From: a virus
Strand: one strand, 5' to 3'
IMG/VR virus record: IMGVR_UViG_3300032313_000518
Span: 46,969-110,968 of that record
DNA: 64,000 nt
Positions 42,756 through 64,000 of the stretch are shown piece by piece. The position numbers and the translations under genes were made by a program. The notes under the pieces are model-generated. The model had not been told where the DNA came from and did no database searches. It worked only from the letters and a program-made list of their open reading frames with translations. The first letter of the stretch is position 1; every line of letters starts with the position of its first letter.

Positions 42756-45700
42756 ATGAGTGAATTATCTAACTTTTTAGTAGAAAGCATATTAGGAGAA
42801 TCTGTCGAAATGGAAAACGTAATAGTTGTCTATTCCGGCAGATTTCAACCGTTTCATAAAGGGCATTTCGCCACATACAAACAACTTGTATCAAAATTCG
42901 GAAAGAATGATGTTTATATAGCAACATCTAACAAAACCGATAGCCAAAAATCTCCATTTGATTTCAGAGAGAAAAAAACTATAATGACTAAAATGTTTGG
43001 TATTCCATCAAACAAAATAGTTCAGGTTAAAAACCCATACCAACCAACGGAAATTGTAAGTTCATACGATGCAGCTAAGACTGGTTTAATAGTTGTAGTT
43101 GGTGAGAAGGATGAGCAACGTTTAGGTGGAAACTATTTTACTCCATATAAAGGTAAGGTGGAGATGGGATATTTGGATAAAGGATACGTTTACGCTTCAC
43201 CATCACAATCAAACCCAATTAGTGGAACTGATGTTCGTAATTGGTTAGGTAATGGGACTGATGAGGAAAAAAAAGAAGGATTCTTAAAAGCTTATCCAAA
43301 GTTTGATGCAACTGTTTTCAAATTCATTACATTAAAATTAAGAAAACTTTCTGAAGATATTAACTTAGATGTAAATGTAGGTGATACTCTTTTAATGGGT
43401 AAGTTTAAGAATAAAAGAGTAGTTGTAAAAAATATTGATAAAGATGAGCATGGTATGCCAACTATCAATGGTAAGAAAGCAACAACATTTAGAATACCAC
43501 CAAAATCAAATCTATTTAATGAATCATCATTAGGCGGATACTCAGCTGAAGCAGGTGAGCCTGAAACTGGATATGTTGCGGATGGACAAAAAAGATTGAT
43601 AAATAAAGCAAAACCAGAACCTTGGTTTAAGCAAGGTGGATATAAACAATTACATGTACCACAGGGTGATTGGATTAGAGGTAAAGGTAAAAATAGAGAT
43701 AACGATTCAACATTTAGAAAAGTTTACTATAAAGTAACCAATATAGATACGAGTGATTTGGACCCTGCTAAAGACCCACATAAAGTTGAAGATTGGAAAG
43801 AAGTAAAACCAAAGAAAAAAATTAAAAAACCAAAAAGATTTTGGGAAGATACTGAATTGGATACAAACTTATCATTAATATCCGAAGAGGATTTAAATCA
43901 AATAGCAGAAGATTATATGGCTGCATTGGATGAAATGGGACTTGGTGGAGGAGCTGGTGTAGGTTTATCATTGCCAGGTGGATTCATAAATGGAGCACCA
44001 AAAGCAGATGATGTTGCCAAAGTAAGTAAGAAGTTGAAGAATAAAGGAATGAGTGGGTATGAGGAGATTGATGAAGATATTAATTCCGATACGATAGAAT
44101 GTTCAAATTGTGGATGGGAATGGGAAAAATCTGAAGGTGGTGAACATCCATATACATGCCATAAATGTGGTAATGATAATTCCGATGAACCAATAGAAGA
44201 TTTAACGGAGATGGCTGAAATGGCTAAATCTGATTTAGACCAAGTTGAAAAATACGCAGATGCCCAATTATCTCCTGAAGATATTGAGTTGGGAAAAGAG
44301 AGTGACCATTTCTTCCAAAGATTAAATGACCCTCGTAATGGTAAACAAATATCTCCAGCTGAACTAACTGGTTTCTTTAAGAGATTAGCAAAAAATAAAA
44401 AGAAATTTTTAGATTTTATAAAACAATATAAGGAGTTTGTTGTTAAAGATAAGAGAACAAACATTAACATTCCGTTTATGGCAGTAGCAAACAAATTGAT
44501 TGCTAAAACCATAATGAGAAAAGATGATTTCAAATCTTCAACACCCGTCTATGTAACGGAACAAATACTAAACGAAGGTGGAGCTTATGGACACATGCAT
44601 CATCCGTTTGATATTGAAATGAACCTTACGTTCTCTGACCTAAAGAACATTGTTAAGAAGGCACTTACTGGAGATTTGGATGTAGCAAGAGAAAAGACAG
44701 ATGGACAGGCATTGGCAATCAGTTGGGTAAACGGAAGATTAGTTGCAGCTCGTAACAAATCACATCTAAAGAATAAAGGTGAGGGTGCTATGACAATAGG
44801 ACAGGTAGCAGATAAGTTTGGTGGTAGAGGTGGATTAACCGATGCTTACAACTTTGCTATGAAAGATTTATCAAAAGCAATTGGCTCATTATCCGAACCA
44901 CAAAGAAAAAAGGTATTCAATGATGGTAGTTCGTTTATGAATTTGGAAGTAATATACCCAACATCAGTAAACGTAATTCCATACAACCAACCGCTATTAG
45001 TATTTCACGGAACATTTGATTATGATATTGATGGTAACATAACTGGTGAGAACCAAACATCAGCAAGAATATTAGCTGGTATGATTAAGCAGATAAATGC
45101 AAGTGTTCAATCCAAATACACAATACAAGGACCTCCAATGCAAAAATTACCAAAGAGTGAGGATTTAACAAAACTACAATCAAAGTATATGAGTATGATA
45201 TCTAAACTACAAAGTGAGTTTGGGTTATCTGATTCGGATGGGGTAGCTGATTATCATCAAGCTTGGTGGAGTAACTTTGTGGATAAAAACGCAAAGGGTT
45301 TAGATGCACAAGAAAAGATTGGTTTGGTTAAGAGATGGGCATTTGGTGATAAAGGATTCAGAATAGCAACAATACAAGACCCTAAGTTAAGAAGTTGGGC
45401 AGATAATACCGAAAAGAAAGACCAAGCTAAAATAGCAAAAGATAACCTAATGAAATTTGAAGAAATATTCTTAGGAGTTGGGGCAGATGTTCTTTCATTT
45501 ATGGAATCCGTACTTACTGCAAATCCAACGGAAGCAACTAAACAAATGGTAGCTAGATTGCATAAGACGGTTGATGATGTTAGAAAGTTGGGAGACCCTA
45601 AAAAATTGGACAAACTTAAATTAGAATTGCAAAGATTACAGGCGTTGGGTGGTTTTGAAAAGATAGTTCCAAACGAAGGTATCGTATTTGTATATAACGG

Positions 45701-45767
45701 AAACACTTACAAATTAACAGGAGCATTCGCTCCACTTAATCAGATATTAGGTCTTTTTTACGAATAA
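42756..45767 (+). CDS. Multidomain protein: NMNAT-type nucleotidyltransferase, zinc ribbon, ligase-like adenylation domain
   Basis: The protein has 1003 residues. A short N-terminal peptide (SELSNFLVESILGESVEMEN) precedes the nucleotidyltransferase domain, whose GRFQPFHKGH (residues 28-37) is the HxGH adenylyl-transfer motif and NPISGTDVRNWL resembles the second, ISxTxxR motif of NadM/NadR enzymes. The middle carries low-complexity Lys/Pro modules and a zinc ribbon (C449, C452, C468, C471). Residues about 615-1003 contain REKTDGQALAISW with K647, the K-x-D-G lysine of the DNA/RNA ligase superfamily, and FMNLEVIYP as the motif III acidic strand. NAD synthesis plus nucleic-acid repair is a tempting pairing, but neither activity is shown. 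The N-terminal ILGES could be a prohead protease site. Confidence 0.68.
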   Translation: MSELSNFLVESILGESVEMENVIVVYSGRFQPFHKGHFATYKQLVSKFGKNDVYIATSNKTDSQKSPFDFREKKTIMTKMFGIPSNKIVQVKNPYQPTEIVSSYDAAKTGLIVVVGEKDEQRLGGNYFTPYKGKVEMGYLDKGYVYASPSQSNPISGTDVRNWLGNGTDEEKKEGFLKAYPKFDATVFKFITLKLRKLSEDINLDVNVGDTLLMGKFKNKRVVVKNIDKDEHGMPTINGKKATTFRIPPKSNLFNESSLGGYSAEAGEPETGYVADGQKRLINKAKPEPWFKQGGYKQLHVPQGDWIRGKGKNRDNDSTFRKVYYKVTNIDTSDLDPAKDPHKVEDWKEVKPKKKIKKPKRFWEDTELDTNLSLISEEDLNQIAEDYMAALDEMGLGGGAGVGLSLPGGFINGAPKADDVAKVSKKLKNKGMSGYEEIDEDINSDTIECSNCGWEWEKSEGGEHPYTCHKCGNDNSDEPIEDLTEMAEMAKSDLDQVEKYADAQLSPEDIELGKESDHFFQRLNDPRNGKQISPAELTGFFKRLAKNKKKFLDFIKQYKEFVVKDKRTNINIPFMAVANKLIAKTIMRKDDFKSSTPVYVTEQILNEGGAYGHMHHPFDIEMNLTFSDLKNIVKKALTGDLDVAREKTDGQALAISWVNGRLVAARNKSHLKNKGEGAMTIGQVADKFGGRGGLTDAYNFAMKDLSKAIGSLSEPQRKKVFNDGSSFMNLEVIYPTSVNVIPYNQPLLVFHGTFDYDIDGNITGENQTSARILAGMIKQINASVQSKYTIQGPPMQKLPKSEDLTKLQSKYMSMISKLQSEFGLSDSDGVADYHQAWWSNFVDKNAKGLDAQEKIGLVKRWAFGDKGFRIATIQDPKLRSWADNTEKKDQAKIAKDNLMKFEEIFLGVGADVLSFMESVLTANPTEATKQMVARLHKTVDDVRKLGDPKKLDKLKLELQRLQALGGFEKIVPNEGIVFVYNGNTYKLTGAFAPLNQILGLFYE

Positions 45768-45825: not shown

Positions 45826-46515
45826 ATGGCAAAAGAATTCAATCGAAAGTACATGCATCCGACTCGTAGAAAGTTATCGGATATGGTATTACGTGGGCAG
45901 GAATATGAAACAAATGCACAAATCTCATTATCAGTAAATCCAGAAGCTAATATTACTAGAGAAGTTGGAGAAACTTGGACTGATTCAAATGGAGTTCAAT
46001 GGGAACAAAAAAAATGGGGTAAGGAGCAAATATCATCATTAAGTGAAACAATGTCTAGTGTAAGAAATTACCTATCAGAACTTAATAGATGTAAAGGTAC
46101 TGAATGTAAAACAATCAAATTAGGTAGAGTAGATAAAAAGTTAATATCTAAAACAGGATATTGTACAACTTGTCTTGCTAAAAAAGAATTTGAAATAAGA
46201 GTAGATGGGTTGTGGGATGCGTATGAAACCTACAAATTAACATCAAATATGATTGACCACGGAACTGATGTACTTGCTCAATTTAATCAAGCATATAAAG
46301 ATGCAAGACAGGAATATGAGTATGTAAACGAAAATGGTACAACTGAAAAGTGGACTATGGAAAGACCTGTTGAGGAATTAAAAGCAGAAATATTGCTTGA
46401 AATTACCAACGTAGAAGCTGAAGTTGCACAAGTTACAAAATTAAGAAATGAAGCTTGGGAGTTACTAAAAGATAAAAATTACGATTTAGTAAAGCCACCT
46501 AAAGATTTAGTATGA
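45826..46515 (+). CDS. Candidate small terminase subunit or terminase-linked zinc protein
   Basis: The protein has 229 residues and overlaps the large terminase start by ATGA, the usual place for a terminase partner. A four-cysteine site (C89, C94 in RCKGTECK; C113, C116 in YCTTCLAKK) may bind zinc. The C-terminal half is helical with a coiled coil (residues about 175-215, LKAEILLEITNVEAEVAQVT). The gp16 proteins of T4 have a central coiled coil for oligomerisation but no zinc site, so homology is not shown. The assignment rests on position, size and coiled coil. Confidence 0.5.
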   Translation: MAKEFNRKYMHPTRRKLSDMVLRGQEYETNAQISLSVNPEANITREVGETWTDSNGVQWEQKKWGKEQISSLSETMSSVRNYLSELNRCKGTECKTIKLGRVDKKLISKTGYCTTCLAKKEFEIRVDGLWDAYETYKLTSNMIDHGTDVLAQFNQAYKDARQEYEYVNENGTTEKWTMERPVEELKAEILLEITNVEAEVAQVTKLRNEAWELLKDKNYDLVKPPKDLV

Positions 46516-48154: not shown

Positions 48155-48592
48155 ATGATTAAGTTAAAATCTTTACTGAACGAAGATGAGTATATTGACC
48201 AAGCATATGCTATGGGTGATACTCCGCAAGATAATCCAATTGATGATTATGATGAATTGGATGTTGAGCAAGAAGATATGGATGATTTTATTACATTCTT
48301 AAAAGGGTACTCAAACGAATTGGATGAGGCGAATTGTAATTGTGTATTTGAAGCAGAATATCAGGGAAGAGAAGTAAAGTTGGGTAAACCGATGCAAGGC
48401 GATGTGAAGAAATTTAAGGTCTACGTCAAAAACCCAAAAACAGGTAAGGTGATTAAGGTGAATTTTGGACAGAAAGGAATGGTTATTAAAAAAGACAATC
48501 CAGCAAGAAGAAAATCATTTAGAGCAAGAATGAATTGTGATAATCCCGGTCCAAGAACAAAGGCAAACTATTGGAGTTGCCGAAAATGGTAA
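48155..48592 (+). CDS. Small head-region protein with a conserved Cys/Trp-ended basic domain
   Basis: The protein has 145 residues. The N-terminus MIKLKSLLNEDEYIDQ looks like a capsid-targeting peptide ending at an L-x-E protease site; an acidic stretch follows. The C-terminal 65 residues (KVYVKNPKTGKVIKVNFGQK; NPARRKSFRARMNCDNPGPR; YWSCRKW) form a compact basic domain that I recall from T4-like marine phages, where it occurs near portal and protease genes. It is probably a DNA-binding or head-packaged protein. The portal gene follows 11 bases later, on the same transcript. Confidence 0.62.
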   Translation: MIKLKSLLNEDEYIDQAYAMGDTPQDNPIDDYDELDVEQEDMDDFITFLKGYSNELDEANCNCVFEAEYQGREVKLGKPMQGDVKKFKVYVKNPKTGKVIKVNFGQKGMVIKKDNPARRKSFRARMNCDNPGPRTKANYWSCRKW

Positions 48593-48603
48593 AATAGAAA
48601 ATT

Positions 48604-50367
48604 ATGGCAGAAGTAAATGATGATAGAAGTTTTTTTGGTAGATTAAGAAAGTTATTCTCAACACAAGCTGTTGTGCGTATTGATAAAGACGGTAGACGTA
48701 AAGTTGTAGATACCGATGAGAGACAATTCAATACAAACTTTATGAACCTACGTGATAGGTACACAAAGTTACAAAAATCATTCTACGAACAACAAGGTGG
48801 TGCACAATCAATGGCATATGCACAAGTTCGCAGAGAATTATTCAGAGATTATGATGCAATGGATAATGACCCGATACTTTCATCGGCATTAGACATTTAT
48901 GCCGATGAATCAACTACAAAAGATGAGTATGGTGAGGTATTAACAATCAAATCATCTAACGAAAATGTAAAAGAAGCATTACACAACCTATTCTACGATG
49001 TAATGAACGTAGAGTTTAACTTATGGCCTTGGGTTCGTAATATGGTTAAGTATGGTGATTTCTTTTTGGCATTGGAGATTGGTGAGAATGCTGGTATTGT
49101 AAACGTAAAACCATATTCAACATATAATACTGAAAGATTAGAAAATACTGACCCACAAAATCCTAACTATGTTAAGTTTAAAGTGGAGTTGGATGAGATT
49201 GGTAAAAAAGAATATGAGAACTATGAAATGGCTCACTTCCGTTTACTTTCAGATACAAACTTCCTACCATACGGAAAATCAATGTTGGAAGGTGCACGAA
49301 GAATTTGGAAACAATTAACTCTTATGGAAGATGCGATGTTAATTCATCGTATTATGAGAGCACCTGAAAAGAGAGTATTCAAAATTGATATTGGTAACAT
49401 TCCACCGCAAGAGGTTGATAACTATATGCAAAAGATTATCAACAAAATGAAAAAAACTCCATTCGTTGATAGAAATACAGGAGATTACAACTTAAAATAC
49501 AATATCCAAAACCTTACGGAAGATTTCTTCTTACCTGTTAGAGGTGGAGATAGTGGTACATCAATTGAAAACATTAGTGGTTTAGAATATACTGCAACGG
49601 AAGATATTGATTACTTAAAGAACAAATTATTTGCTGCATTGAGAGTACCAAAGGCTTACTTATCATATGATGAGAACGTAAATGGTAAAGCAACTCTTGC
49701 GGCAGAGGATGTTCGTTTTGCAAGAACTGTGGAAAGAATTCAAAGAACGGTGGTAAGTGAATTAACTAAAATAGCAATTGTTCACTTAGCAGCTCAAGGT
49801 ATTGATGATGCTGAAATGGTAAACTTTGAATTAACTCTTACAAACTCATCTACAATCTATGAGCAAGAGAAAGTAAATCTTTGGAGTGAGAAAGTAAGAT
49901 TGGGAACTGATATTAAAGCAATGAATATGTTATCTACGGATTGGGTATATCATAATGTATTTAATATGAGTGAAGAGGAGATAAATACTGAAAGAGCTAA
50001 GGTAATATTAGATATCAAAGATAGATTTAGACACAACTCAATTGAACAGCAAGGTGAAGACCCGGCAAATCCACCAAAACAACAAAATGTGGAGCAGGAG
50101 ATAGAGGAGTTGAAATTGGGTATGAATCAAGACAAAGGTGGTAGACCAAGAGAAGGTAATACTTATGGTAAAGATAAGCATCCATATGGTAGAGACCCTT
50201 TGGGTGATAAAGAAAATCACGGAGAAAGAAAAAGAGAAAATAGAAACATACCAAGTGCAAAATTAGCAAAAGAATATGTGAATGGAATATCAGCTAAAAG
50301 AAAGGTTTTGATTGAAAAATCAGGTATGTTAGATGAAAAAAATCTATTAGATGACACGAAAATTTAA
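48604..50367 (+). CDS. 20: Portal vertex protein, gp20-like
   Basis: The protein has 587 residues; T4 gp20 has 524. PILSSALDIYADESTTKDEY near residue 95 and the following IKSSN are typical of T4-type portals. RVPKAYLSYDENVNGKATLA near residue 355 followed by DVRFARTVERIQ is the conserved crown/wing signature. The C-terminal 80 residues are Lys/Glu/Gly-rich and probably disordered. The dodecamer forms the DNA entry channel and nucleates prohead assembly. The terminase gene precedes and the protease follows, as in T4 gene order 17-20-21-22-23. Confidence 0.92.
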   Translation: MAEVNDDRSFFGRLRKLFSTQAVVRIDKDGRRKVVDTDERQFNTNFMNLRDRYTKLQKSFYEQQGGAQSMAYAQVRRELFRDYDAMDNDPILSSALDIYADESTTKDEYGEVLTIKSSNENVKEALHNLFYDVMNVEFNLWPWVRNMVKYGDFFLALEIGENAGIVNVKPYSTYNTERLENTDPQNPNYVKFKVELDEIGKKEYENYEMAHFRLLSDTNFLPYGKSMLEGARRIWKQLTLMEDAMLIHRIMRAPEKRVFKIDIGNIPPQEVDNYMQKIINKMKKTPFVDRNTGDYNLKYNIQNLTEDFFLPVRGGDSGTSIENISGLEYTATEDIDYLKNKLFAALRVPKAYLSYDENVNGKATLAAEDVRFARTVERIQRTVVSELTKIAIVHLAAQGIDDAEMVNFELTLTNSSTIYEQEKVNLWSEKVRLGTDIKAMNMLSTDWVYHNVFNMSEEEINTERAKVILDIKDRFRHNSIEQQGEDPANPPKQQNVEQEIEELKLGMNQDKGGRPREGNTYGKDKHPYGRDPLGDKENHGERKRENRNIPSAKLAKEYVNGISAKRKVLIEKSGMLDEKNLLDDTKI

Positions 50368-51873: not shown

Positions 51874-52080
51874 ATGGCAGGAATAACAAAACAAAGACTA
51901 AAAGAATTAGTTAAGGAAGTAATGGTAGAAGAAACTGAATATCAGGCATTCTTCCAAAAGGCATTAGATAAAGCTGGTAAATCTATCCCATCTATGAGTG
52001 ATGATGAAAAAAAGGCATTCTTTGATAAAATTGATTCAGCTTGGAATGGTAAGGGTGAAAAATCCGAATCCGTAAAATAA
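51874..52080 (+). CDS. Small head-region protein
   Basis: The protein has 68 residues. The first 20, AGITKQRLKELVKEVMVEET, form an amphipathic helix ending in V-x-E-E, like the targeting peptides of neighbours. SIPSMSDDEKKAFFDKIDSA followed by WNGKGE is a module I associate with short proteins of T4-like head operons. It starts one base after the upstream stop and ends seven bases before gp21. It is probably packaged with the core. Confidence 0.58.
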   Translation: MAGITKQRLKELVKEVMVEETEYQAFFQKALDKAGKSIPSMSDDEKKAFFDKIDSAWNGKGEKSESVK

Positions 52081-52087
52081 TAACAAA

Positions 52088-52675
52088 ATGAAGAATCTTT
52101 TAATAGAAACCAAATTATTCGAAGGAAAGGTAGAAGAGGATGCTGGTGGTAGAACTATCGTTAAAGGTGTTCTTCAAAGAGCTGGTGCGGAGAATCAAAA
52201 TGGTAGAGTATATCCAAAGCCTACATTAATGAGAGAAGCTCAAAAATATGAGCAACTTATCAAAGAACGTAGAGCATTAGGTGAATTAGACCACCCCGAT
52301 TCAACTGTAATCAATTTAAAGAACGTATCACACAATGTTAGAGAAATACATTGGGAGGGAGATGATTTATGTGGTACGGTTGAAATCCTTGCAACCCCAT
52401 CTGGTAATATCCTTAAAGAATTACTTAAAGCTGGTATCCTATTAGGTATATCATCAAGAGGTATGGGTTCTACAAAACAAATGGAAGGAAATAAAGTAGA
52501 AGTTCAGGAAGATTTTGAGCTTATAGGTTGGGATTTTGTTTCTAATCCATCTACACATGGTGCATTTATGGTACCTGTAAACGAATCAGTAACAAAACAA
52601 ATTGGAACTGATGTTTGCGGAGACTATTGCAAAGCACAAGATTTAATGAGAGAAATTATAACTGAAATATCATAA
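52088..52675 (+). CDS. 21: Prohead core protein protease, gp21-like (family S80)
   Basis: The protein has 195 residues; T4 gp21 has 212. GELDHPD with His69 and GISSRGMGS with Ser122 or Ser123 are the catalytic signature of the T4 prohead protease family. AENQNGRVYPKPTLMREAQK is the conserved N-terminal strand-helix block, and WDFVSNPSTHGAF the last one. In T4 the protease cuts core and capsid proteins after Glu in [IL]-x-E-[AG] contexts and then itself. Its own N-terminus (LLIET, LFEGK) has matching sites. Its presence makes processing of the capsid and the multi-linker protein at 56941 plausible. The stop overlaps the next start in TAATG. Confidence 0.92.
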   Translation: MKNLLIETKLFEGKVEEDAGGRTIVKGVLQRAGAENQNGRVYPKPTLMREAQKYEQLIKERRALGELDHPDSTVINLKNVSHNVREIHWEGDDLCGTVEILATPSGNILKELLKAGILLGISSRGMGSTKQMEGNKVEVQEDFELIGWDFVSNPSTHGAFMVPVNESVTKQIGTDVCGDYCKAQDLMREIITEIS

Positions 52676-53852: not shown

Positions 53853-55502
53853 ATGATTAGATTAAACCAACTACTTAAAGAGGAAACGTTTACCGCAACT
53901 AATAAATCAACTGGTAAAACTTCTGTATTCAAATCTAAAGATAGTAGAGATGCTGCAATCAAAGCAGGTACACATGATGCTATGAAAGATAAAGAACAAC
54001 CAAAATCAGCACCAAGAGCAGCTGGTAATAGTATGTTTGGTGGAGATTATGCAAAAGATAGAGGTGGTGAGGCTCCTAAAGCTGATACTACTTCAACTCC
54101 TAAAGTAGATATGGGTGTAGATTCAGTTGTATATAACAAAAGAACAAAGACAGTTGGTATTGTACGAATGGGAGATGAAAGAGGTGAAACTAAAACTGAT
54201 GCAGATGGTAATGTAAATACCGATGAGTTAGAACCATACAATCCAATGAAGTATCCACACCAAAAGGATGCACAAGTTGCACCATCTACAACAAAAGAAA
54301 TAGATAGTAGAGGATTGTACAAACCATTTTCTCAATCAGCTAACGAACCTAAAAAAATAAATAATCCAACTGAAGCACTTCCAAAAGAAATTTATGCTAA
54401 AATGGATAATGAAGATAGTGATGCTGGTGAAATGGATTATTTATCTTCAACTGATGGTAGTATAAAATATGGTATAGCTAAAGAAGGTGATAAATATTAT
54501 GTAACATTAGGTACTGAAGAAGGTGAAATATTAAAATCTTTTGGAAAAACTAAAGATGCTGGAGAAGCTGCACAAATATTTATGAAAAATTTAGATGCTG
54601 TAAAATCTAAATATAATTTGGATGTGGATTCAAACGAACCAAAAGCAGAACCAGCTAAAAAAAGACCTGGTAATCCTACTGTAAATAAAGAAGCTAAGAA
54701 AACCGCAGAAAAATATGGTATTACTCCTCAAAAGTTGGGTAATGAAAAATATAAAGAAGCAATGTTACAAGCAGCAGTGTCTGCATTAACTGATTCAAAC
54801 TTCCACAGTGAAGCAAGAGAATTAGTTGCAGCAATTGAAGGAAAGCCTGAATTTGCAAAAAAACCGGAGTACCCATCGATGAAAGACCCTAAGTATAAAG
54901 AAAAAATGGCAGATATTCGTAAGAATTCCGCAGATGGTTCGATTTATATGAATGGTACTGGTAAGATTGATGATTATGGTACGGATGTATCACAAGCATC
55001 TGGATGGGATGGTGTTGATGCAGCGGATAGTATTGCATTTACATTAAGAATGAATGGTTTCCATAAAGAAGCAGATTTGATTCAATCGGTATTTGATAAT
55101 AAACCATATATGAAAAATGAGGGTACAATTAAATTAACAAAGTTAATGGAAAATGACCCTTGTTGGAAGGGATACAAACAAGTTGGAATGAAAGATAAGA
55201 ATGGTAGAGAAGTTCCAAATTGTGTACCTGAAGGAGTTGTTAAAGAAGCAGGTATTCCTAAATTATTTTTAAAAATAGAAGCAGTTAAAAAGAAAATAAA
55301 AGAATTAATGGATGCAAGAAAATCTGCAGTAGTTCCATATAATAAAGAAACTGACCCTAAAAAGAAAGAAGCATTAAAACAACCTTTAATTAAATTGACA
55401 GCACAAATAACATCATATCAAAAGAATTTATTAAATCTATTGGATATGGAAGAAAAATATATTCAAACTTTAAATCAAAACGATGAGTTAGAATTATCTT
55501 AA
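53853..55502 (+). CDS. Probable head-packaged multidomain protein
   Basis: The protein has 549 residues from ATG 53853; the in-frame start at 53793 would overlap the upstream gene by 59 bases and is rejected. MIRLNQLLKEETFTATNK is a targeting-like N-terminus with an L-K-E site. Modules follow: a basic segment, a PV-rich linker, a domain with YYVTLGTEEGEILKSFGKTK, a helical domain (AMLQAAVSALTDSNFHSEAR), and NDPCWKGYKQVGMKDKNGRE followed by VPNCVPEG, a Cys-paired module common in T4-like head-region proteins. VVKEAGIP near residue 465 fits V-x-E-A before a C-terminal coiled coil. It ends the operon at a strong terminator. Confidence 0.62.
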   Translation: MIRLNQLLKEETFTATNKSTGKTSVFKSKDSRDAAIKAGTHDAMKDKEQPKSAPRAAGNSMFGGDYAKDRGGEAPKADTTSTPKVDMGVDSVVYNKRTKTVGIVRMGDERGETKTDADGNVNTDELEPYNPMKYPHQKDAQVAPSTTKEIDSRGLYKPFSQSANEPKKINNPTEALPKEIYAKMDNEDSDAGEMDYLSSTDGSIKYGIAKEGDKYYVTLGTEEGEILKSFGKTKDAGEAAQIFMKNLDAVKSKYNLDVDSNEPKAEPAKKRPGNPTVNKEAKKTAEKYGITPQKLGNEKYKEAMLQAAVSALTDSNFHSEARELVAAIEGKPEFAKKPEYPSMKDPKYKEKMADIRKNSADGSIYMNGTGKIDDYGTDVSQASGWDGVDAADSIAFTLRMNGFHKEADLIQSVFDNKPYMKNEGTIKLTKLMENDPCWKGYKQVGMKDKNGREVPNCVPEGVVKEAGIPKLFLKIEAVKKKIKELMDARKSAVVPYNKETDPKKKEALKQPLIKLTAQITSYQKNLLNLLDMEEKYIQTLNQNDELELS

Positions 55503-55525: not shown

Positions 55526-55552
55526 AAAGCTTGGTAATCCCAAGCTTTTTTT
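55526..55552 (+). terminator. Rho-independent terminator
   Basis: AAAGCTTGG (55526-55534) pairs with CCAAGCTTT (55540-55548) around a five-base loop, followed by a run of seven T. It ends the 50435-55502 transcript and sits directly before a host-type promoter. Confidence 0.88.
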
Positions 55553-55553
55553 G

Positions 55554-55561
55554 TATATTTG
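55554..55561 (+). promoter_or_regulatory. Bacteroidota-type promoter, -7 box TATATTTG
   Basis: TATATTTG follows the terminator. TTG at 55531-55533, inside the hairpin stem, lies exactly 20 bases upstream and could be the -33 element, the same spacing as at 25743. The ATG at 55570 is 8 bases downstream, so the transcript would be almost leaderless. Confidence 0.65.
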
Positions 55562-55569
55562 TGTTATCT

Positions 55570-56901
55570 ATGATAAAACCATTTTCAATACTCGATACCC
55601 GCACCAAAGAATGGCAAGACCGTAAACGTTGGTGGATACAAACCTATAATATCAAATCAGAATTAGGTAGGGAGGATACTCAATCGAATAGTAAGTTTTG
55701 GGATGATGAAGATACTGTTTCGGTATTTGATGCTACTCTATGTGAAAAAATGTATGAGTGGTTTGTTCCAAAGAGTGGTAAAGTATTAGACCCATTTGCA
55801 GGTGGAAGTGTTAGGGGAATTGTAGCAACGGAAATGGGATTCAAATACGATGGAATTGATATATCACAAACACAAATAGAAGCAAATAGAAAACAATCCG
55901 ATAAACCTCGATGGATGGGTGGGGATAGTTACCTATTATTAAATGTATTAGAAGGAAATACCTATGATTTTGTATTCACTTGCCCACCATACTACGATTT
56001 GGAGGTATATAGTGATAATGCGAATGATTTATCAAATATGGCGGATGCGCAATTTGATGATAGATATATTTCTATATTACAAAAATCAGCAGAAAAGTTA
56101 AAGAACAATAGATTCTTTGCAGTTGTGGTATCCGAAGTTAGAGAGGTATCAAAGACAGGAGATTACAAAATTGGAAAGTATAGAGGATTGGTAAACAAAA
56201 CTATTTCAGCAATGGAAGAAGTTGGATTGCACTTCTATAACGATATGGTTCTATTCAACTCACAACATCAGGCTGGAAGAGTGGTAGATACATATTTCAA
56301 ACGTAATCGTAAGGTAGCATCTGTTCATCAAAACGTATTAGTATTTGTAAAAGGAAATCCTGATTTGGCAACGGAAGATATTGAATGGGATGGTACTTAC
56401 AAATGTGTAGTTGGTGGAAAACAATACAAATCATTCAGAGAAGCAGCAATTTCAATCAACCCAAATGAGTTAGTAGCATCTGAAGTAGAAAGAAGATGCC
56501 TTTCACCAAAAACCAAATACAAAGGGTGGCAGGTAATTGGTGAGGAAACATATCCTATCTTAAAATATTGTATAGATGGGTATTACTTTGAATCTCCTGT
56601 ACAGGCAGCAGAGTACATTGAATATAGTGAAACTGAAATTCGTAATCGCTTAGAATCAAAAGCTGACCATTATAGACATTGGAAAAAGTTGGATACTCCA
56701 ATTACAAATATAACTTACGATTCACATGAAAGGACTCTAAAGGATATTCAAGTTAGAGATAAGATACATACGATAAGTTGTGAAGGAGAACTCTTCTACA
56801 CACTAAAGGATGCCGGTGAAAGATTTGGTGTATCGGATGAACGAATCAGACAGAAAATCCAATCGGACAAACATACTGATTACTTTTACTTATTTTCATA
56901 A
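55570..56901 (+). CDS. DNA methyltransferase with three C-terminal NUMOD-like modules
   Basis: The protein has 443 residues from ATG 55570; an in-frame upstream start at 55531 lies within the terminator and is rejected. SAM-binding motif I is KVLDPFAGGSVRGIVATEMG near residue 71; the catalytic motif IV is TCPPYYDLEV with C138-P-P-Y, the CPPY variant of DPPY used by some N6-adenine or N4-cytosine enzymes. Residues about 275-443 contain three repeats, each with a short strand, an aromatic then SFREAA/SPVQAA/TLKDAG helix, and a second helix, resembling the NUMOD1/HTH modules of homing endonucleases. It would methylate phage DNA against host restriction; specificity is unknown. Confidence 0.78.
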   Translation: MIKPFSILDTRTKEWQDRKRWWIQTYNIKSELGREDTQSNSKFWDDEDTVSVFDATLCEKMYEWFVPKSGKVLDPFAGGSVRGIVATEMGFKYDGIDISQTQIEANRKQSDKPRWMGGDSYLLLNVLEGNTYDFVFTCPPYYDLEVYSDNANDLSNMADAQFDDRYISILQKSAEKLKNNRFFAVVVSEVREVSKTGDYKIGKYRGLVNKTISAMEEVGLHFYNDMVLFNSQHQAGRVVDTYFKRNRKVASVHQNVLVFVKGNPDLATEDIEWDGTYKCVVGGKQYKSFREAAISINPNELVASEVERRCLSPKTKYKGWQVIGEETYPILKYCIDGYYFESPVQAAEYIEYSETEIRNRLESKADHYRHWKKLDTPITNITYDSHERTLKDIQVRDKIHTISCEGELFYTLKDAGERFGVSDERIRQKIQSDKHTDYFYLFS

Positions 56902-56940: not shown

Positions 56941-58995
56941 ATGCCTGCAAAATCAAAAGCTCAACAACGTTTTATGGGAATGGTTCATGCCGTACAAAAA
57001 GGAGACATGGATGCCCCATCATCGGAAGTTGAAAAAGCAGCTGATTCAATGAGTGATGCAGACGCAAAAGATTACGCATCAACCAAACACAAAGGTTTAC
57101 CCAACCATGTGAAAAAAGAAAATATGGAAAAAGAATTAAAAGAAATCATCCGTCAAACATATAGAGAGAGTTTGAGAGAATCAGTAAACGAAGCTAAGAT
57201 ACAACCAAAAGATGATTGGGGAGTTAGATTAGTTGTAGCTATTAATAATAATGTTGCTGCATTACATACATCCGTTATAAGAGAAAAAAAAGATGTACAG
57301 CAAGCAGTTGCTGCTTTTGGTAATGTGTTAAAAAATGCTATTAAAGAAACTCTAAAGCACAAATACAAACCACATCCAAAATATACTGAAGCTGATAGTA
57401 AAATAAAAACATTTATTTCTGAACTTAAAAAGTTTGAAAATATTGTAGATATGGTTATTTCTAAACCAACAAAATCTGGTATTGTAAAATTGGATGATGC
57501 TTGGAGAAGTATTTGGAATCATAAATTTGGTTCGGCAATTGCCCTATCTGGTGATTTGTTTAATAGTATTATAGAAAACGAATCGGTAAACGAAGCAAAA
57601 TACCCAACCAATTTATATGTTGGTTCTGTAATTTATGGACAAGGATTTACTGGATTAAAAGGAATTGAAGGTGGTAAATACTACAAAGTTGTTGAAATGG
57701 ATGATTATTCAGCAACATTAGTACCATGTGATGAAAAAGGTAAGATAACAGGTTCAAAAAAAGTTAGACATAAATTAGATTCAATCGAAGGTGGTATCAA
57801 AACTGCTAAAAGAGGAGATGAAAACGGAATTGTCATCGAATCAGTAAACGAATCAATATCACATGAAGCAATGGGAATCGCTTCAATGACTAACACTAGA
57901 AAAGAAGCAGTTCAAAAGTTTATTGATGATAACAACTTAAATGCAAAAGAAATATTAACTCACGTTACCAAAGGTAAATTGCCGGAGAGAATTCGTTTTG
58001 TTCAGGCATTAGTTGGAACTCCTAATAATTCTTCTTTCAAATGGTATGTAAAAAATTACGCAAACGAATCGGTAGTAAACGAAGCAATTGATATTAACCA
58101 TTGGAAAAAATATGCAAATGGTGGAGGGCCATTGTTTAGCCGTAAAGTAAAAACTCAACGTGAATTTAATACAGAATTTCGTGAGGTAGCTTATGCTTAT
58201 AATAATGACCCAGATAGTCGTGAAAACAGACTTAAACGTGATAAAATTGAAAAAGTAAAAAAATTAGCACAGGAATTTTTTGATAAAGAGGGTTTTATCA
58301 CATCTAATATTATTGATGAAATGTGGTCTGCAATGGTATCTGGTAAGATAAAGGAAGGCAAGGTAACCGAAGGTAAGAAAGCATTCAAAATAAATCCACC
58401 AATCGGTAGTTCAAAATATAGTATTAGTGCATATGATGGTATAACAAAACACAAAGATGGTAGTCCTTTTTACAATATTCTTATTTTTAAGAACAAAGCA
58501 GATTTAGAAAGAAGAGCTAATTATTTTAGAAGCGAAAAATACATTGAAGAAGCAGTAGTAACCGAAGGAAAGAAAGCATTCAGAATAAATCCACAAATCG
58601 GTAAAGCAAAATATAGTATTAGTGCTCACAATGGTGTATCAAAACACAAAGATGGTAGTGATTTTTGGGATATTCTTATTTTTAAGAACAAAGCGGATTT
58701 AGAAAGAAGAGCTAAATATTTTAGAGGTGAAAAATACATTGAAGAAGCAGTAGTAACGGAAGGAAGATACGATGCAGATTTGGATAAAATTGAAGCAGTA
58801 GTTAAAAACGCAACATCTTTTATGAATGTAGGTTCTGAATTGAAGAAAGCAGGAATTAAATATGATTTCACAACTTCAATGATTCCTATGTATATGATTA
58901 AAGTATCTGGTAACACTATTGCAATTTGTAATAAGAAATATGCAGCTGGTGCGGAGAGAGAAGTGAACGATATAGCAATTGGTTTATTAAATTAA
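56941..58995 (+). CDS. Modular head-region polyprotein with prohead-protease-like linkers
   Basis: The protein has 684 residues. The first 60 (MPAKSKAQQRFMGMVHAVQK; DYASTKHKGLPNHVKKE) belong to the DUF3008 type. Seven linkers follow with the core V-[NT]-E-[AGS]: residues 82-84, 216-218, 302-304, 379-381, 475-477, 540-542 and 605-607, usually within ESVNEA or EAVVTEG. Each lies between independent-looking modules of 60-130 residues. Modules 6 and 7 are a 65-residue tandem duplication. The motif agrees with the T4 rule for gp21 cleavage after Glu before a small residue, and gp21, scaffold and capsid genes are nearby. I infer a core or packaged protein cut into separate peptides. No module has a recognised activity. 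Confidence 0.7.
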   Translation: MPAKSKAQQRFMGMVHAVQKGDMDAPSSEVEKAADSMSDADAKDYASTKHKGLPNHVKKENMEKELKEIIRQTYRESLRESVNEAKIQPKDDWGVRLVVAINNNVAALHTSVIREKKDVQQAVAAFGNVLKNAIKETLKHKYKPHPKYTEADSKIKTFISELKKFENIVDMVISKPTKSGIVKLDDAWRSIWNHKFGSAIALSGDLFNSIIENESVNEAKYPTNLYVGSVIYGQGFTGLKGIEGGKYYKVVEMDDYSATLVPCDEKGKITGSKKVRHKLDSIEGGIKTAKRGDENGIVIESVNESISHEAMGIASMTNTRKEAVQKFIDDNNLNAKEILTHVTKGKLPERIRFVQALVGTPNNSSFKWYVKNYANESVVNEAIDINHWKKYANGGGPLFSRKVKTQREFNTEFREVAYAYNNDPDSRENRLKRDKIEKVKKLAQEFFDKEGFITSNIIDEMWSAMVSGKIKEGKVTEGKKAFKINPPIGSSKYSISAYDGITKHKDGSPFYNILIFKNKADLERRANYFRSEKYIEEAVVTEGKKAFRINPQIGKAKYSISAHNGVSKHKDGSDFWDILIFKNKADLERRAKYFRGEKYIEEAVVTEGRYDADLDKIEAVVKNATSFMNVGSELKKAGIKYDFTTSMIPMYMIKVSGNTIAICNKKYAAGAEREVNDIAIGLLN
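58375..58764 (+). repeat. Tandem 195-base duplication coding two 65-residue modules
   Basis: Copy 1 is 58375-58569 and copy 2 is 58570-58764. Both encode KKAF[KR]INP.IG, then KYSISA, HKDGS, LIFKNKADLERRA, YF, EKYIEEAVVTEG. The copies differ at several positions, in synonymous and non-synonymous ways, so the duplication is not fresh. The repeat unit includes the cleavage-like linker. Confidence 0.85.
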
Positions 58996-59210: not shown

Positions 59211-60311
59211 ATGGCAAGTTCAAAATTATTAAAAGAAGCAATCGCTGACGCTAAAGCTGTACGTGAAACTGCTATTGCCAATGCTAAAATTGCATTAGAA
59301 GAAGCATTTACTCCTCGTTTACAATCTATTCTTTCTAGAAAATTACAAGCCGAAATGGAAGGTGATGAAGACGAAGAAGCAGATATAACCGAAGATAATG
59401 ATACATCTACTGGAATTGGTACTGGTGATAACAAACAACCGGCAGATGCGGCAAATACAGCGCAGACTGACTTAAGTGGTATTTCTAAGCAATCAGCATC
59501 AGCTGGTGATGAGTTAGAAGGACACGATGAAGTTGATGATTTAATGGAAGGCGAAGACGAAGAAGCACCGGCAATGGAAGGTGAAGATGAGGCTGAGTAC
59601 GCAGCAGAAGGTGAAGAAATGGCACCAGAGGCTGATGAAGATGAATTAGATTTGGAATCTATCATCAGAGAATTAGAAGACGAAATCGGAGTTGAAGAAT
59701 CTGATGAGTTAGGATACGAAGACCCAACAGGCGTTGAGAACGCATACGAAGGTGAAGAAGAAGCTCCAGCAGCAGAAGCTCCAGCGGAAGATGAAATGGA
59801 AGCTCCAGCGATGGAAGGAGAAGAAGAAGAAACTATCGATTTAGACGAAATCCTTCGTGAGATGGGTTACGGAGATGATGAAGAAGTTTCTGAAGAAGAA
59901 GAAGCAGGAAACGAAGAAGAAATGGCAGCAATGCAATCTGAATTGAAAGAAGCATATTCAACTATTCAATCTTTGAGAAAAACTATCAACGAAGTAAATT
60001 TATTAAACGCTAAATTACTTTACACTAACAAATTGTTCAGAGGATATAATCTAACTAATGAGCAAAAAATTAAAGTTGTAGAGAATTTAGACAGAACTTC
60101 TAACGTAAGAGAAGTTAAATTGGTTTACGCAACATTATCTGAATCAATGAAATTCACTGGTACTGAAAGAAAAGTAGCAGCTAAGAAAAGCATAACTGAA
60201 GGGTTAGCATCTAAGCCAACTGCATCTACTGCACCAGCAAAACAAATTATTTCAGAAAATACAAATGAATTAGCAAATCGCTTTAAGCAATTAGCTGGTA
60301 TCATTAAATAA
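59211..60311 (+). CDS. 22: Prohead core scaffold protein, gp22-like
   Basis: The protein has 366 residues; T4 gp22 has 269. It starts ASSKLLKEAIADAKAVRETA, a helical targeting-like segment with L-K-E-A. Residues about 45-250 are extremely acidic and Ala-rich (runs of Glu-Asp with MEGEDE and AP). The C-terminal third is helical (ELKEAYSTIQSLRKTINEVN; EQKIKVVENLDRTSNVREVK). Acidic helical content, length and position directly before the capsid gene fit the T4 core protein, which is cut to small peptides by gp21; KSITEGLAS and LKEAYST are candidate sites. Starts shared with T4 are not evident from sequence alone. Confidence 0.78.
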   Translation: MASSKLLKEAIADAKAVRETAIANAKIALEEAFTPRLQSILSRKLQAEMEGDEDEEADITEDNDTSTGIGTGDNKQPADAANTAQTDLSGISKQSASAGDELEGHDEVDDLMEGEDEEAPAMEGEDEAEYAAEGEEMAPEADEDELDLESIIRELEDEIGVEESDELGYEDPTGVENAYEGEEEAPAAEAPAEDEMEAPAMEGEEEETIDLDEILREMGYGDDEEVSEEEEAGNEEEMAAMQSELKEAYSTIQSLRKTINEVNLLNAKLLYTNKLFRGYNLTNEQKIKVVENLDRTSNVREVKLVYATLSESMKFTGTERKVAAKKSITEGLASKPTASTAPAKQIISENTNELANRFKQLAGIIK

Positions 60312-60337: not shown

Positions 60338-61996
60338 ATGGCAAATTTTGATTTATCCAAGTTAATGGAAGGCAAAAACCCACAAGCAGTAATGTTGGCT
60401 GAAACACGTCAATTGAAATCTAAGTGGGAGAAAACCGGTCTATTAGAAGGTATGAAAGATAGAGACCAACACTCTATGGCAGTTCTTTTAGAGAACCAAG
60501 CTAAGCAATTGTTGGACGAGGCAACTCAAACTGGTACTTCTTCTGGTTCAGAAGAGTGGAGTGGTGTAGCTTTACCTTTAGTAAGAAGAATCTTCGGTGA
60601 GATTGCTTCTAAAGAATTCGTTAGTGTACAACCTATGAACTTACCTTCTGGTCTTGTATTCTTCTTAGATTTCAAATATGGCTCAGCACAAGGAGCAGCA
60701 GGACAATTCGGTGGAAAATCACTTTTTGGTGGTACTAACGCAACTGGTTCAGCAGCTAACTTTGGTAGAACTGATGCAGCAACAGGTGGTTTATATGGTG
60801 AAGGCCGTTATGGTTATTCAGTAAACGATGCTACTGCAACTATTACTACTACTCAAGTAAATGGTACAATCACTTCAGCATCTGGTGTAACTTGGTCTGA
60901 AGTTGGATATGATTCAGCAATTTCTGCATCAGTTTCGGCTGGTAAAGTATTTAAATTAACTGTATCTGGTTCAGCAATCGCTTCAACTTTTGATTCTAAT
61001 GCAGTTCGTTCTACATTAGTAACAAACGCTGGTGTATTCGCTAACTTAAACCAATACAACTATTACAACTCAACTTCTGGATTAGCGGTATTATACGTTT
61101 CTGGTTCTACTTTAGCAGCAGCTGGTGGTCCTTCAAACACTATCGTTTACTCTGAAGTTCCTGTAGCTTATGATAGAGGAGATTTCGAAGATTCAACTGC
61201 AAACTCTGCTGGTAACACAACAACTGCATTGGATATCCCTGAAATCGACTTAGAATTGAAATCAGAGGCAATCGTTGCTAAGACTCGTAAGTTGAAAGCA
61301 GTTTGGACTCCTGAATTAGCACAAGACTTAAATGCATATCACTCAATCGATGCAGAAGCTGAATTAACTTCTATGTTATCTGATTATATCTCATTAGAGA
61401 TTGACTTAGAAATCTTAGATATGTTAAAGAGCAACGCATTGACTACTGAATACTGGTCTGCAACTATTGGTGAGGAATTACTTAACAATGGTGCAACTGG
61501 ACAAGCAGCTTGGTCTACTGGTAACTCTTCATTGGCTTACCAAAAGAACACTTGGTTCCAGACTTTAGGAACTAAAATCAATAAGGTATCTAATAAGATT
61601 CACCAATTAACATTAAGAGGTGGAGCTAACTTCATCGTTGCTTCTCCTGATGTTTGTACTATCTTAGAATCTATTCCTGGATTCGTAGTAAACGCTGATA
61701 AAGATGCAACATCTTTCGCAGCTGGTGTAACTCAAGTAGGTGCTATGGCTAATCGCTACACTGTTTACAAAAACCCTTATATGACTTCTAACGAAATCTT
61801 ATTAGGATATAGAGGTAACAACTTCTTAGAGACAGGTGCAGTTTACGCTCCATATGTTCCTTTGATTATGACTCCTTTAGTGTACGACCCACAAAACTTC
61901 ACACCAAGACGCGGAGTTATGACTCGTTACGCTAAGAAAATGGTCCGTCCGGAATACTACGGAAAGATTTATGTTAAAGATTTACAAAACATCTAA
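60338..61996 (+). CDS. 23: Major capsid protein, gp23-like
   Basis: The protein has 552 residues; T4 gp23 has 521. LVRRIFGEIASKEFVSVQPM and NLPSGLVFFLDFKYGS near residues 85-115 are the conserved N-arm and first strand of T4-type capsids. DIPEIDLELKSEAIVAKTRK, LKAVWTPELAQDLNAYHSID and the end (MTPLVYDPQNFTPRRGVMTR; YAKKMVRPEYYGKIYVKDL) are the strongest signatures. LLDE|ATQTG puts a prohead protease site at E61/A62, close to E65/A66 in T4 gp23. It builds the capsid hexamers. A strong terminator follows. Confidence 0.95.
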   Translation: MANFDLSKLMEGKNPQAVMLAETRQLKSKWEKTGLLEGMKDRDQHSMAVLLENQAKQLLDEATQTGTSSGSEEWSGVALPLVRRIFGEIASKEFVSVQPMNLPSGLVFFLDFKYGSAQGAAGQFGGKSLFGGTNATGSAANFGRTDAATGGLYGEGRYGYSVNDATATITTTQVNGTITSASGVTWSEVGYDSAISASVSAGKVFKLTVSGSAIASTFDSNAVRSTLVTNAGVFANLNQYNYYNSTSGLAVLYVSGSTLAAAGGPSNTIVYSEVPVAYDRGDFEDSTANSAGNTTTALDIPEIDLELKSEAIVAKTRKLKAVWTPELAQDLNAYHSIDAEAELTSMLSDYISLEIDLEILDMLKSNALTTEYWSATIGEELLNNGATGQAAWSTGNSSLAYQKNTWFQTLGTKINKVSNKIHQLTLRGGANFIVASPDVCTILESIPGFVVNADKDATSFAAGVTQVGAMANRYTVYKNPYMTSNEILLGYRGNNFLETGAVYAPYVPLIMTPLVYDPQNFTPRRGVMTRYAKKMVRPEYYGKIYVKDLQNI

Positions 61997-63511: not shown

Positions 63512-64000
63512 ATGTCAATACAAATAGAAAAAAATATTACAACTGTCCAAGTTGAAATACCAAAAACCAATGTTGCAATTGAAACTGCAGTAACGGAAAT
63601 AACTGTCCAAACTTCACAACCGGAAATAATAATAGCAACGGCAGGAGTTCAAGGACCGGTAGGACCGAGAGGGTTTGATACTGGTACATCAGGAACTTCT
63701 GGAACAAGCGGAGTAAATGGTTCATCAGGAACTTCTGGAATAGGAAGTAATGGTACATCGGGTACATCCGGTTCAAACGGTATAACTGGAGCAGGTGGTA
63801 CGGCTGGTTCATCTGGAACATCAGGTTTAAATGGTACATTCTTTGGAAGTAGTGGAACATCTGGAGTAAGTGGAAGTGGTGGCACAAGTGGTACATCAGG
63901 AACTTCTGGAGTAAGTGGAAGTAGTGGGACTAGTGGTATAAGTGGTAGTGATGGTACAAGCGGCACATCTGGAACAAGTGGCACTTCGGGAACGTCTGGA
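63512..64000 (+). CDS. Collagen-like fibre with GTSG repeats, cut by the window end
   Basis: ATG at 63512 opens a frame that runs off the window without a stop (163 codons seen). The first 45 residues (MSIQIEKNITTVQVEIPKTN) are a beta-type attachment segment, then GVQGPVGPRGFDTG begins a collagen-like Gly-x-y region that becomes (GTS)n with Ser, Asn, Val and Ile substitutions. Collagen-like trimers form slender virion fibres or whiskers. GTS-type triplets are frequent in Bacteroidota phages. The repeat continues past base 64000 so length and C-terminus are unknown. Confidence 0.85.
   Translation, partial: MSIQIEKNITTVQVEIPKTNVAIETAVTEITVQTSQPEIIIATAGVQGPVGPRGFDTGTSGTSGTSGVNGSSGTSGIGSNGTSGTSGSNGITGAGGTAGSSGTSGLNGTFFGSSGTSGVSGSGGTSGTSGTSGVSGSSGTSGISGSDGTSGTSGTSGTSGTSG
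63691..64000 (+). repeat. Nine-base ggtacatca-like repeats (Gly-Thr-Ser)
   Basis: Degenerate 9-base units coding Gly-Thr-Ser or Gly-Ser/Val-Ser tile the fibre gene to the window edge. Synonymous codons vary, so the repeat is kept at protein level. Confidence 0.82.

Follow-up and report, generated by a model that had tools for sequence, protein, structure and literature searches.

The prohead protease gp21 of phage T4 cuts after L/I-x-E, the proteases of phiKZ and SPN3US cut after S/A-x-E and A-x-E, and proteases of the gp21 class trim their own C-termini (PMC9026906, PMC10052503, PMC5694885; here and below, published work is reported as far as the accessible text of the papers goes). T4 proteins are targeted to the capsid by a leader of the 10-residue type that ends in hydrophobic-x-Glu, the propeptides being 10-19 residues long (PMC9026906), and the mature internal protein IPI has 76 residues (PMC3012670). 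Here we describe a gene of the IMG/VR virus record IMGVR_UViG_3300032313_000518 which probably encodes several proteins of this kind in one chain. The window, that is the whole stretch of DNA analysed, comprises 64,000 nucleotides (positions 46,969-110,968 of the 110,968-base record). The gene lies inside a T4-type head cluster, between the genes for the S77 protease and the capsid protein (Table 1).

We consider it rather probable, from the comparisons given below, that the gene encodes a polyprotein of head cargo, from which the gp21-type protease, acting in trans, would release about eight products of T4 internal-protein size. Eight or so small, mostly basic modules would be made as one chain, which would join the other core proteins in the prohead core. 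During head maturation the phage's own S77 protease would cut the chain after each linker glutamate; the freed modules would remain in the head with the DNA and would probably reach the host at infection, as T4 internal proteins do. The linker may double as a protease site and as a seam for module exchange between phages. In cleavage and packaging taken together we have fairly good confidence; packaging in the head is likely, and injection is suggested by the analogy with T4 internal proteins. A preliminary description of this DNA had proposed that the gene delivers several separate peptides into the capsid, and the comparative evidence supports that proposal. Cleavage in trans, the staying of the products in the head, their entry into the host and what each module does are inferred.

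Seven glutamate linkers and the modules between them

A strict form of the linker motif, [VI][NT]E[AGS], occurs seven times in the 684-residue product against 0.19 expected from shuffling, a number that none of 2,000 shuffles attained. In the whole record (128 candidate open reading frames (ORFs), 35,150 residues) there are 12 copies; the remaining five lie singly in five other ORFs, among them the prohead protease and the gene at the scaffold position. A loose form, [VILM]xE[AGS], gives 12 sites in the polyprotein against 2.5 expected (0 of 500 shuffles). The loose form is less specific: two cultured relatives that share the window's capsid and protease, Microcystis phage Mel-JY01 and Flavobacterium phage immuto, have Glu-rich proteins at the scaffold position in which it also exceeds its number in shuffled sequences (clearly so in Mel-JY01 with 11 versus 2.7; 8 versus 3.7 in immuto). 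The ORF and the seven linker cores, including the linker glutamate or P1 residue of each, are exactly as first described. The spacing had been given as 65-134 residues, and we measured 134, 86, 77, 96, 65 and 65 residues followed by a tail of 77. Linkers reading mostly ESVNEA or EAVVTEG had also been reported. The cores agree, but each literal string accounts for only two of the seven; the others are ESVNES, ESVVNEA and KVTEG.

At five linkers a second loose site lies four or five residues upstream. With arrows marking the predicted cuts, these double sites are LRE↓SVNE↓A (E80/E84), VIE↓SVNE↓S (E300/E304), IKE↓GKVTE↓G (E472/E477) and, in linkers 6 and 7, IEE↓AVVTE↓G (E537/E542 and E602/E607). 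The literal T4 specificity, L/I-x-E, does not occur at the seven linker sites themselves, and Leu or Ile at P3 is found only at the companions E80, E472, E537 and E602. Of the [IL]-x-E context that the preliminary description gave for T4 gp21, the linkers have the P1 glutamate but not the P3 residue, which is Val in all seven. All seven V-x-E linkers combine Glu at P1 with a hydrophobic P3, as do the phage's own protease and capsid sites, and in this respect they have the features of gp21-type substrates.

The modules had been called independent. Most are indeed unrelated to one another, but residues 478-542 and 543-607 are tandem copies. The view of the linkers as simple repeats was considered and rejected, since the intervening modules are mostly unrelated and 6a/6b is the sole tandem duplication. 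Module lengths are 65-134 residues, with an isoelectric point (pI) of 8.0-9.7 in seven of the eight and of 6.8 in module 1. Module 1 belongs to the DUF3008 family (Pfam PF11450, 28.5 bits against a cut-off of 24, residues 3-57). No confident family was found for modules 2-7 in Pfam, PHROGs, NCBIfam, PADLOC and PDB sequence searches. An embedded peptidase was not matched by any model at E 1 or better in Pfam, PHROGs and NCBIfam, modules 2-7 being without a confident family in any case. Fold searches with the full-length protein gave helical bundles (best E 0.027), apparently led by module 2, a common arrangement to which no function is assigned; module 3 gave SH3/KOW/FeoA-like barrels (best Z 6.8), a level that may mean just a common arrangement. 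No viral structure was found in these fold searches at E 0.001 or better.

In the full-length model all seven linker glutamates lie in stretches with a predicted local distance difference test score (pLDDT) below 50. This says little about the linkers, because 395 of the 684 residues (58%) are equally below 50. The model of modules 3-4 (19 alignment rows) has a mean pLDDT of 84 and a predicted template modelling score (pTM) of 0.52, and shows a coil that connects a small beta barrel to a helical bundle. Linker 3 lies within a coil block of mean pLDDT 67 between the two folds. The preliminary description had named burial of the linkers inside one continuous fold as an outcome that would refute it; at this one joint the linker is predicted outside the folds.

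The modules are under purifying selection: the ratio of nonsynonymous to synonymous substitution rates (dN/dS) was 0.00-0.26 in 10 of 11 comparisons and 0.51, with few changes, in the remaining one. This bears on the possibility of a core protein like T4 gp22, gp67 or gp68, which would shape the prohead and be chopped up, most fragments being gone before the DNA is packaged. The position of the gene between protease and capsid would suit such a protein, as would the loose sites in the putative scaffold (7 against 3.5 expected), and the T4 core proteins are themselves cut into several fragments that are mostly removed (PMC9026906). We nevertheless regard a disposable core protein as unlikely, because modules 3 and 4 are predicted to fold and the modules are basic and kept by purifying selection. 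Moreover, a strictly morphogenetic core would not be expected to differ in composition between phages whose capsid proteins are 99% identical, as it does between the window and the related contig L003.

Exchange of modules at the linkers

Using the whole protein and four of its modules singly as queries led to 49 other IMG/VR contigs, some of them near-duplicates, in which the modules recur in varied orders and genes. The first contig set held 48 distinct ORFs including that of the window, or 42 after clustering. Written with recognised modules only, and with a prime or x for diverged or unrecognised stretches, the architectures include 1-2-3-4-4'-6-7 (L003), 1-x-2-3-x-4-6 (L004), 1-3-4 (L008), 1-3-6 (L014), 4-3 (L017), 3-7 (L053) and 7-6 (L043).

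A junction was called clean if the alignment started at the first or second residue of the module, and identical upstream contexts were counted once. At the 39 clean junctions outside the window P1 is invariably Glu and P3 is Val in 29, Ile in 7 and Leu in 3, while P2 varies (N, T, K, R, S, H); 36 junctions fit [VILM]xE↓[AGSV]. The tally started from 56 rows, less 11 in which the alignment began at module residue 3-6 and six from the window, and the 39 rows are related by descent and hence are not 39 independent events. The 13 rows for module 7 read VNE, INE, IKE, LKE, LRE or VTE, always followed by G.

These junctions also bear on whether the chain is cut at all. It might be an uncut multidomain head protein, one structural or core protein whose linkers are mere flexible joints; cleavage is after all a deduction, and linker 3 lies between two folds in the model of modules 3-4 just as a flexible joint would. 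However, all 39 junctions keep the hydrophobic P3 and the Glu at P1, the positions at which proteases of this class show their specificity (PMC9026906), and in relatives some modules stand as single genes or belong to separate genes. An uncut protein therefore seems to us quite unlikely.

Because a query cut at the linkers could favour matches that begin at linker borders, we also compared uncut proteins, using the 42 clustered ORFs and internal alignment ends. Alignment starts lay within six residues of [VILM]xE[AGS] in 122 of 337 cases, against a mean of 45 and a maximum of 65 in 1,000 random placements, and alignment ends in 157 of 350 (mean 47, maximum 70). The excess is well beyond random placement, although shared ancestry again means that the events are not independent.

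A scan for one DNA form of the linker found at least 120 stretches. Among the 80 loci listed, 108 of 113 sites, read as predicted, fell within a frame that stays open for 80 codons or more, frames being measured from stop to stop without a chance control; at least six of these loci were already in the first contig set. Two or more [VIL][NTKSR]E[AGS] sites were present in 70 of 83 ORFs and three or more in 51, and 62 of the 80 loci matched a head-cluster gene of the window at E 1e-6 (portal 40, protease 29, capsid 13). ORFs with five to seven sites occurred, among the matches listed, on the uncultured contigs L091, L136, L151, L156 and L159 and on L122, L123 and L152; those of the latter three have the leader-like starts MKLKSLLKE↓S, MKKLSQLLKE↓S and MKKLKDLLKE↓S.

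When the 107 non-redundant ORFs of both sets were cut into 396 modules of at least 40 residues, these formed 201 sequence families. The rule for cutting was the motif itself, so that some cuts arise by chance, and 143 families were seen once. The other 58 occurred in two or more proteins, and 45 of these were preceded by at least two different neighbours. Related phages thus do carry what the preliminary description had suggested looking for, namely shuffled modules joined by the same linker. Like polyvalent proteins, these chains hold several unrelated domains each and are mosaic between elements.

Exchange is also visible in the DNA. The head cluster of L003 is 88-98% identical to that of the window, and L006 is 91-95% identical outside the polyprotein gene. 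Against these two contigs homology inside the gene is interrupted close to six of the seven linkers, about 31 bases away at most (Table 1); L003 has other breaks outside the polyprotein gene, for example at 52074 and 54104. The DNA of module 5 (58065-58357) is 98.3% identical to part of a different L003 gene located just upstream of the protease, and therefore its exchange was recent.

The linker codons are very uniform: with the window rows included, Val is GTA in 34 of 35, Asn AAC in 24 of 28 and Glu GAA in 44 of 45, whereas the same codons make up 106 of 219, 104 of 226 and 235 of 312 in seven neighbouring genes. We attribute this to shared DNA ancestry, or to recombination that uses the linker as its seam, in addition to selection acting on the protein. 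The 9-mer GTAAACGAA has 10 copies in the window (0.5 expected), four of them in linkers, one in the protease gene and five elsewhere. In module-bearing ORFs of the first contig set every one of the 112 copies is read in the linker frame; another 39 occur outside these ORFs in 610,532 bases. The count cannot separate selection on DNA from selection on protein, because copies are inherited with the modules. Uniform codons and homology breaks at the linkers would be expected if the linker were chiefly a DNA seam spread by copying, its likeness to a protease site being incidental. This we think very unlikely, since variants with other DNA stay within the protease class (IKE↓G, LRE↓G, LKE↓G, LSE↓A) and the same motif occurs in the protease. 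A role in DNA exchange and cleavage are, moreover, compatible.

Protease, capsid and related genes

The window's protease belongs to Pfam Peptidase_S77 (91.2 bits against a cut-off of 27) and carries the linker motif, VNE↓S, at the edge of its own C-terminal domain (E166). In relatives this site reads VNE, LNE, MNE, LQE, MGE or TNE followed by S or G. Of 28 aligned rows, 26 include the region, and 25 of them have E↓[SG] in the aligned column; the remaining one, immuto, is shifted by two columns and has SLNE↓G in its own sequence. P3 is V, L or M in 23 of the 26, and Thr occurs at P3 in two of the 25 rows with E↓[SG]. In an alignment of capsid proteins, 20 of 22 rows carry [LIV]xE↓A near residue 61 (KQLLDE↓A, QLLSE↓A, QLVTE↓A, QLISE↓A, QIVSE↓A); of the other two, one has Thr at P1' and the second is truncated at this point. 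The link between linkers and protease is strengthened by both findings, the motif at the C-terminal site of the protease and the [LIV]xE↓A site kept in the capsid. A lineage with V/L/I-x-E specificity would fit the lineage-specific P3 pattern. Going by the T4 precedent, residue 61 may be the capsid maturation site, but two further conserved sites of the capsid are candidates too.

The gp21 homologue and the capsid gene said earlier to lie within 10 kb are confirmed. The third gene named with them, the scaffold, owes its name to position and acidic composition, and no model in Pfam, PHROGs or NCBIfam supports it. Among named isolates the nearest capsids are those of Microcystis, Flavobacterium and Rhodothermus phages (39-52% identity), and an unannotated record of an uncultured phage matches at 53.6%. 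In the 50 contigs (window included), a terminase, portal, protease, scaffold-position or capsid gene was present in the fetched flanks of 43, and all 50 matched at least one gene of the window's cluster.

Some modules occur as genes of their own. In contig L054 module 3 is a 93-residue protein starting MIKLNDLLSE↓AKYPTNLYVG..., encoded between the protease and capsid genes. Contig L042 has a gene related to the zinc-ribbon part of a 1003-residue protein of the window; its product starts with MIKLKDILNE and continues with Lys. A T4-type propeptide of 10-19 residues is thus present in L054 (LSE↓A) and in part in L042 (LNE, then Lys).

The 1003-residue protein is probably a second head polyprotein, judging from its domains and sites. 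After the leader sites LVE↓S and LGE↓S it contains a cytidylyltransferase/NMNAT-like domain, weak zinc-ribbon matches, and middle and C-terminal domains. The middle domain (about residues 481-602) is found without the remainder in Flavobacterium, Methylophilales and Sinorhizobium phages. LNE↓G precedes the C-terminal domain, as [VIL]xE sites do in several relatives, but with 3 loose sites against 3.0 expected the protein does not exceed chance. A KTDG motif in the C-terminal domain resembles that of nucleotidyltransferase/ligase enzymes; a PDB sequence search with this domain (44577-45764) gave no ligase and four weak matches, to ribosomal protein eS6 (E 0.044-0.29).

Three further ORFs have starts that resemble a shared head-targeting leader: MIKLKSLLNE (48155-48592), MIRLNQLLKE (53853-55502, from an internal Met of the 53793 ORF) and MIKLKSILSE (record position 11859, upstream of the window). 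In all three a D or E follows, not A, G or S. The ORF at 53234 starts with MIRLTEMFN and has no leader Glu. Directly before the polyprotein gene, at 55531-56901, the head cluster encodes a DNA methylase with a C-terminal I-TevI-type DNA-binding domain. At the end of the window (63537-63984), long antisense proline-rich ORFs hint at repetitive, perhaps collagen-like, coding on the + strand.

Table 1. Positions in the window of the polyprotein gene, its modules and linkers, and associated head genes (P1 is the linker glutamate; arrows, predicted cuts)
Feature	Position	Strand	Remarks
Polyprotein ORF	56941..58995	+	ATG 56941, stop at 58995; 684 residues, 77.0 kDa, pI 9.3
Module 1 (residues 1-84)	56941..57192	+	DUF3008 domain plus helix, ends LRE↓SVNE↓A
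Linker 1, SVNE↓A (P1 E84)	57181..57195	+	DNA homology to L006 stops here
Module 2 (85-218)	57193..57594	+	Predicted all-helical; weak fold matches to helical bundles
Linker 2, SVNE↓A (P1 E218)	57583..57597	+	No DNA break versus L003 or L006; module 3 has other upstream sequences elsewhere
Module 3 (219-304)	57595..57852	+	Small SH3/KOW-like beta barrel; alone behind 10-residue leader at L054:7971-8252
Linker 3, SVNE↓S (P1 E304)	57841..57855	+	DNA break versus L006
Module 4 (305-381)	57853..58083	+	Helical
Linker 4, VVNE↓A (P1 E381)	58072..58086	+	DNA break versus L003 and L006
Module 5 (382-477)	58084..58371	+	In L003, part of a different gene just upstream of protease
Linker 5, KVTE↓G (P1 E477)	58360..58374	+	DNA break versus L003 and L006
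Module 6a (478-542)	58372..58566	+	Recurs in other contigs
Linker 6, VVTE↓G (P1 E542)	58555..58569	+	DNA break versus L003 and L006
Module 6b (543-607)	58567..58761	+	Tandem copy of 6a, 80% identical
Linker 7, VVTE↓G (P1 E607)	58750..58764	+	DNA break versus L006
Module 7 (608-684)	58762..58992	+	Found again at the C-terminus, or close to it, in many short ORFs of head clusters
Probable second polyprotein	42756..45767	+	1003 residues; sites LVE↓S (E10), LGE↓S (E15), LNE↓G (E607)
Terminase	46512-48104		Head cluster
Portal	48604-50367		Head cluster
Prohead protease (S77, gp21-type)	52088..52675	+	PF03420 E 7.9e-26, residues 23-167; phrog_207 E 2e-50
Putative scaffold, acidic	59211..60311	+	SITE↓G (E330); named by position and acidic composition
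Major capsid protein (Gp23 family)	60338..61996	+	PF07068 E 3.6e-75; conserved LLDE↓A at E61

Cultured phages offer single relatives of these proteins. Synechococcus phage S-SCSM1, for which 45 virion proteins were reported by mass spectrometry, has a stand-alone DUF3008 protein of 69 residues, annotated as a virion protein and homologous to module 1. Two genes upstream, in a run of genes annotated 'virion protein', lies an NMNAT gene whose product starts MKSFLQFLKE↓A. The virion-annotated genes 89-93 of this phage have 5, 2, 2, 4 and 0 loose sites (raw counts, without a chance expectation). NMNAT or cytidylyltransferases have been reported in other cyanophage virions, some possibly as carry-over according to the authors (PMC10665884, PMC3037559). 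In immuto the NMNAT gene has 7 loose sites against 3.5 expected and ORF 191 has MNE↓SVNE↓G once. ORF 199 of the same phage, just before the protease gene, has seven loose sites against 1.5 expected and is a possible cultured relative. Proteins that share a module with contig L027 have no site in S-BM3, two in P-SSM2 (VEE↓G, VNE↓G) and one in a Rhizobium phage, none clearly above chance.

Several observations weigh against a head polyprotein cut at the linkers. No comparable chain of VNE/VTE linkers was found in the 13 genes examined around the head cluster of Mel-JY01 and the 12 around that of immuto, and the S-SCSM1 relatives are single proteins, not polyproteins. Since none of the cultured relatives examined has a comparable chain, the multi-linker form is known here from uncultured contigs only. 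Val at P3 is the chief departure from T4 gp21, and module 1 lacks a T4-type leader of 10-19 residues, its first site being at residue 80/84. The capsid has two more conserved [LM]xE sites, near residues 11 and 37 (KTGLLE↓G and variants). Three of the 39 clean junctions have Asp, Asp and Thr at P1'. Of the 11 junctions dropped from the tally six have Glu at the computed P1 and five do not; of the latter, one has no upstream sequence, one is shifted by one residue and three are at least three residues from the nearest site. Most alignment ends of uncut proteins are more than six residues away from a site (215 of 337 starts, 193 of 350 ends), and few, 4 starts and 20 ends, fall exactly on one. 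The linker codons are more uniform than the protein requires, so shared DNA ancestry accounts for part of the sameness of the motif. The full-length model, built on 10 alignment rows, has a poor mean pLDDT of 49. Finally, 7 of the 50 contigs have no canonical head gene in the fetched stretch, and some DUF3008-led chains may sit elsewhere in their genomes.

Comparison with described systems

It might be supposed that T4-type phages of natural waters possess a cassette system, in which polyproteins hold a reservoir of modules and one sequence is both protease site and DNA seam. We see the arguments for and against this wider reading as evenly balanced. In our sample the reservoir would amount to 201 families, 58 of them in more than one protein, and a phage could swap its injected payload without any change in the capsid gene. 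The proteins that phages carry in their heads are difficult to identify, being short, quick to change and for the most part without annotation; with a delimiter that can be read, chains could be parsed into single head-cargo candidates from sequence. A cut chain predicts specific new N-termini in virions. A single gene of this kind would also be a natural design for packing several proteins into T4-type heads.

The preliminary description knew of no head polyprotein built on repeated prohead-protease linkers, and we found none among the papers listed from open-licence full text, most subscription papers lying outside that search; those listed describe multi-cut T4 core proteins, propeptides of giant phages and polyvalent proteins. 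The closest likeness is to the T4 internal proteins (IPI, IPII, IPIII and Alt), which are small, diverse and fast-changing head cargo freed by gp21 after hydrophobic-x-Glu. The modules span the size of IPI, and two modules are single genes with a T4-like leader in relatives. T4 internal proteins, however, have separate genes and short N-terminal propeptides, whereas here up to eight would be joined in one frame by internal sites. The T4 core proteins gp22, gp67 and gp68 are likewise cut several times each by the prohead protease, but their pieces are mostly discarded (PMC9026906), while the pieces described here are conserved and exchanged as units.

The ejection proteins of phiKZ and SPN3US are cut after Glu by a distant relative of gp21 with a lineage-specific P3, and the protease trims its own C-terminus. 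They differ in that 13 of the 14 sites mapped in SPN3US remove N-terminal propeptides and one is the C-terminal site of the protease; no multi-product precursor is described in the accessible text. Domains homologous to those discussed here are annotated as, or reported among, virion proteins in the NMNAT and DUF3008 proteins of cyanophages. These are single proteins, and the accessible text of the papers draws no link to protease sites.

The polyvalent proteins (Iyer et al. 2017, PMC5512222) join, like the chain, unrelated domains in one highly mosaic product; they are delivered to the host, as the freed modules would be. Their release is ascribed to embedded peptidase domains (PMC5512222); here it is predicted to be by the prohead protease acting in trans on repeated sites. 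The authors compared polyvalent proteins with the polyproteins of RNA viruses (PMC5512222). If the reading of the chain as cut head cargo is correct, a DNA phage would have a polyprotein strategy like that of RNA viruses and would use its capsid protease for it.

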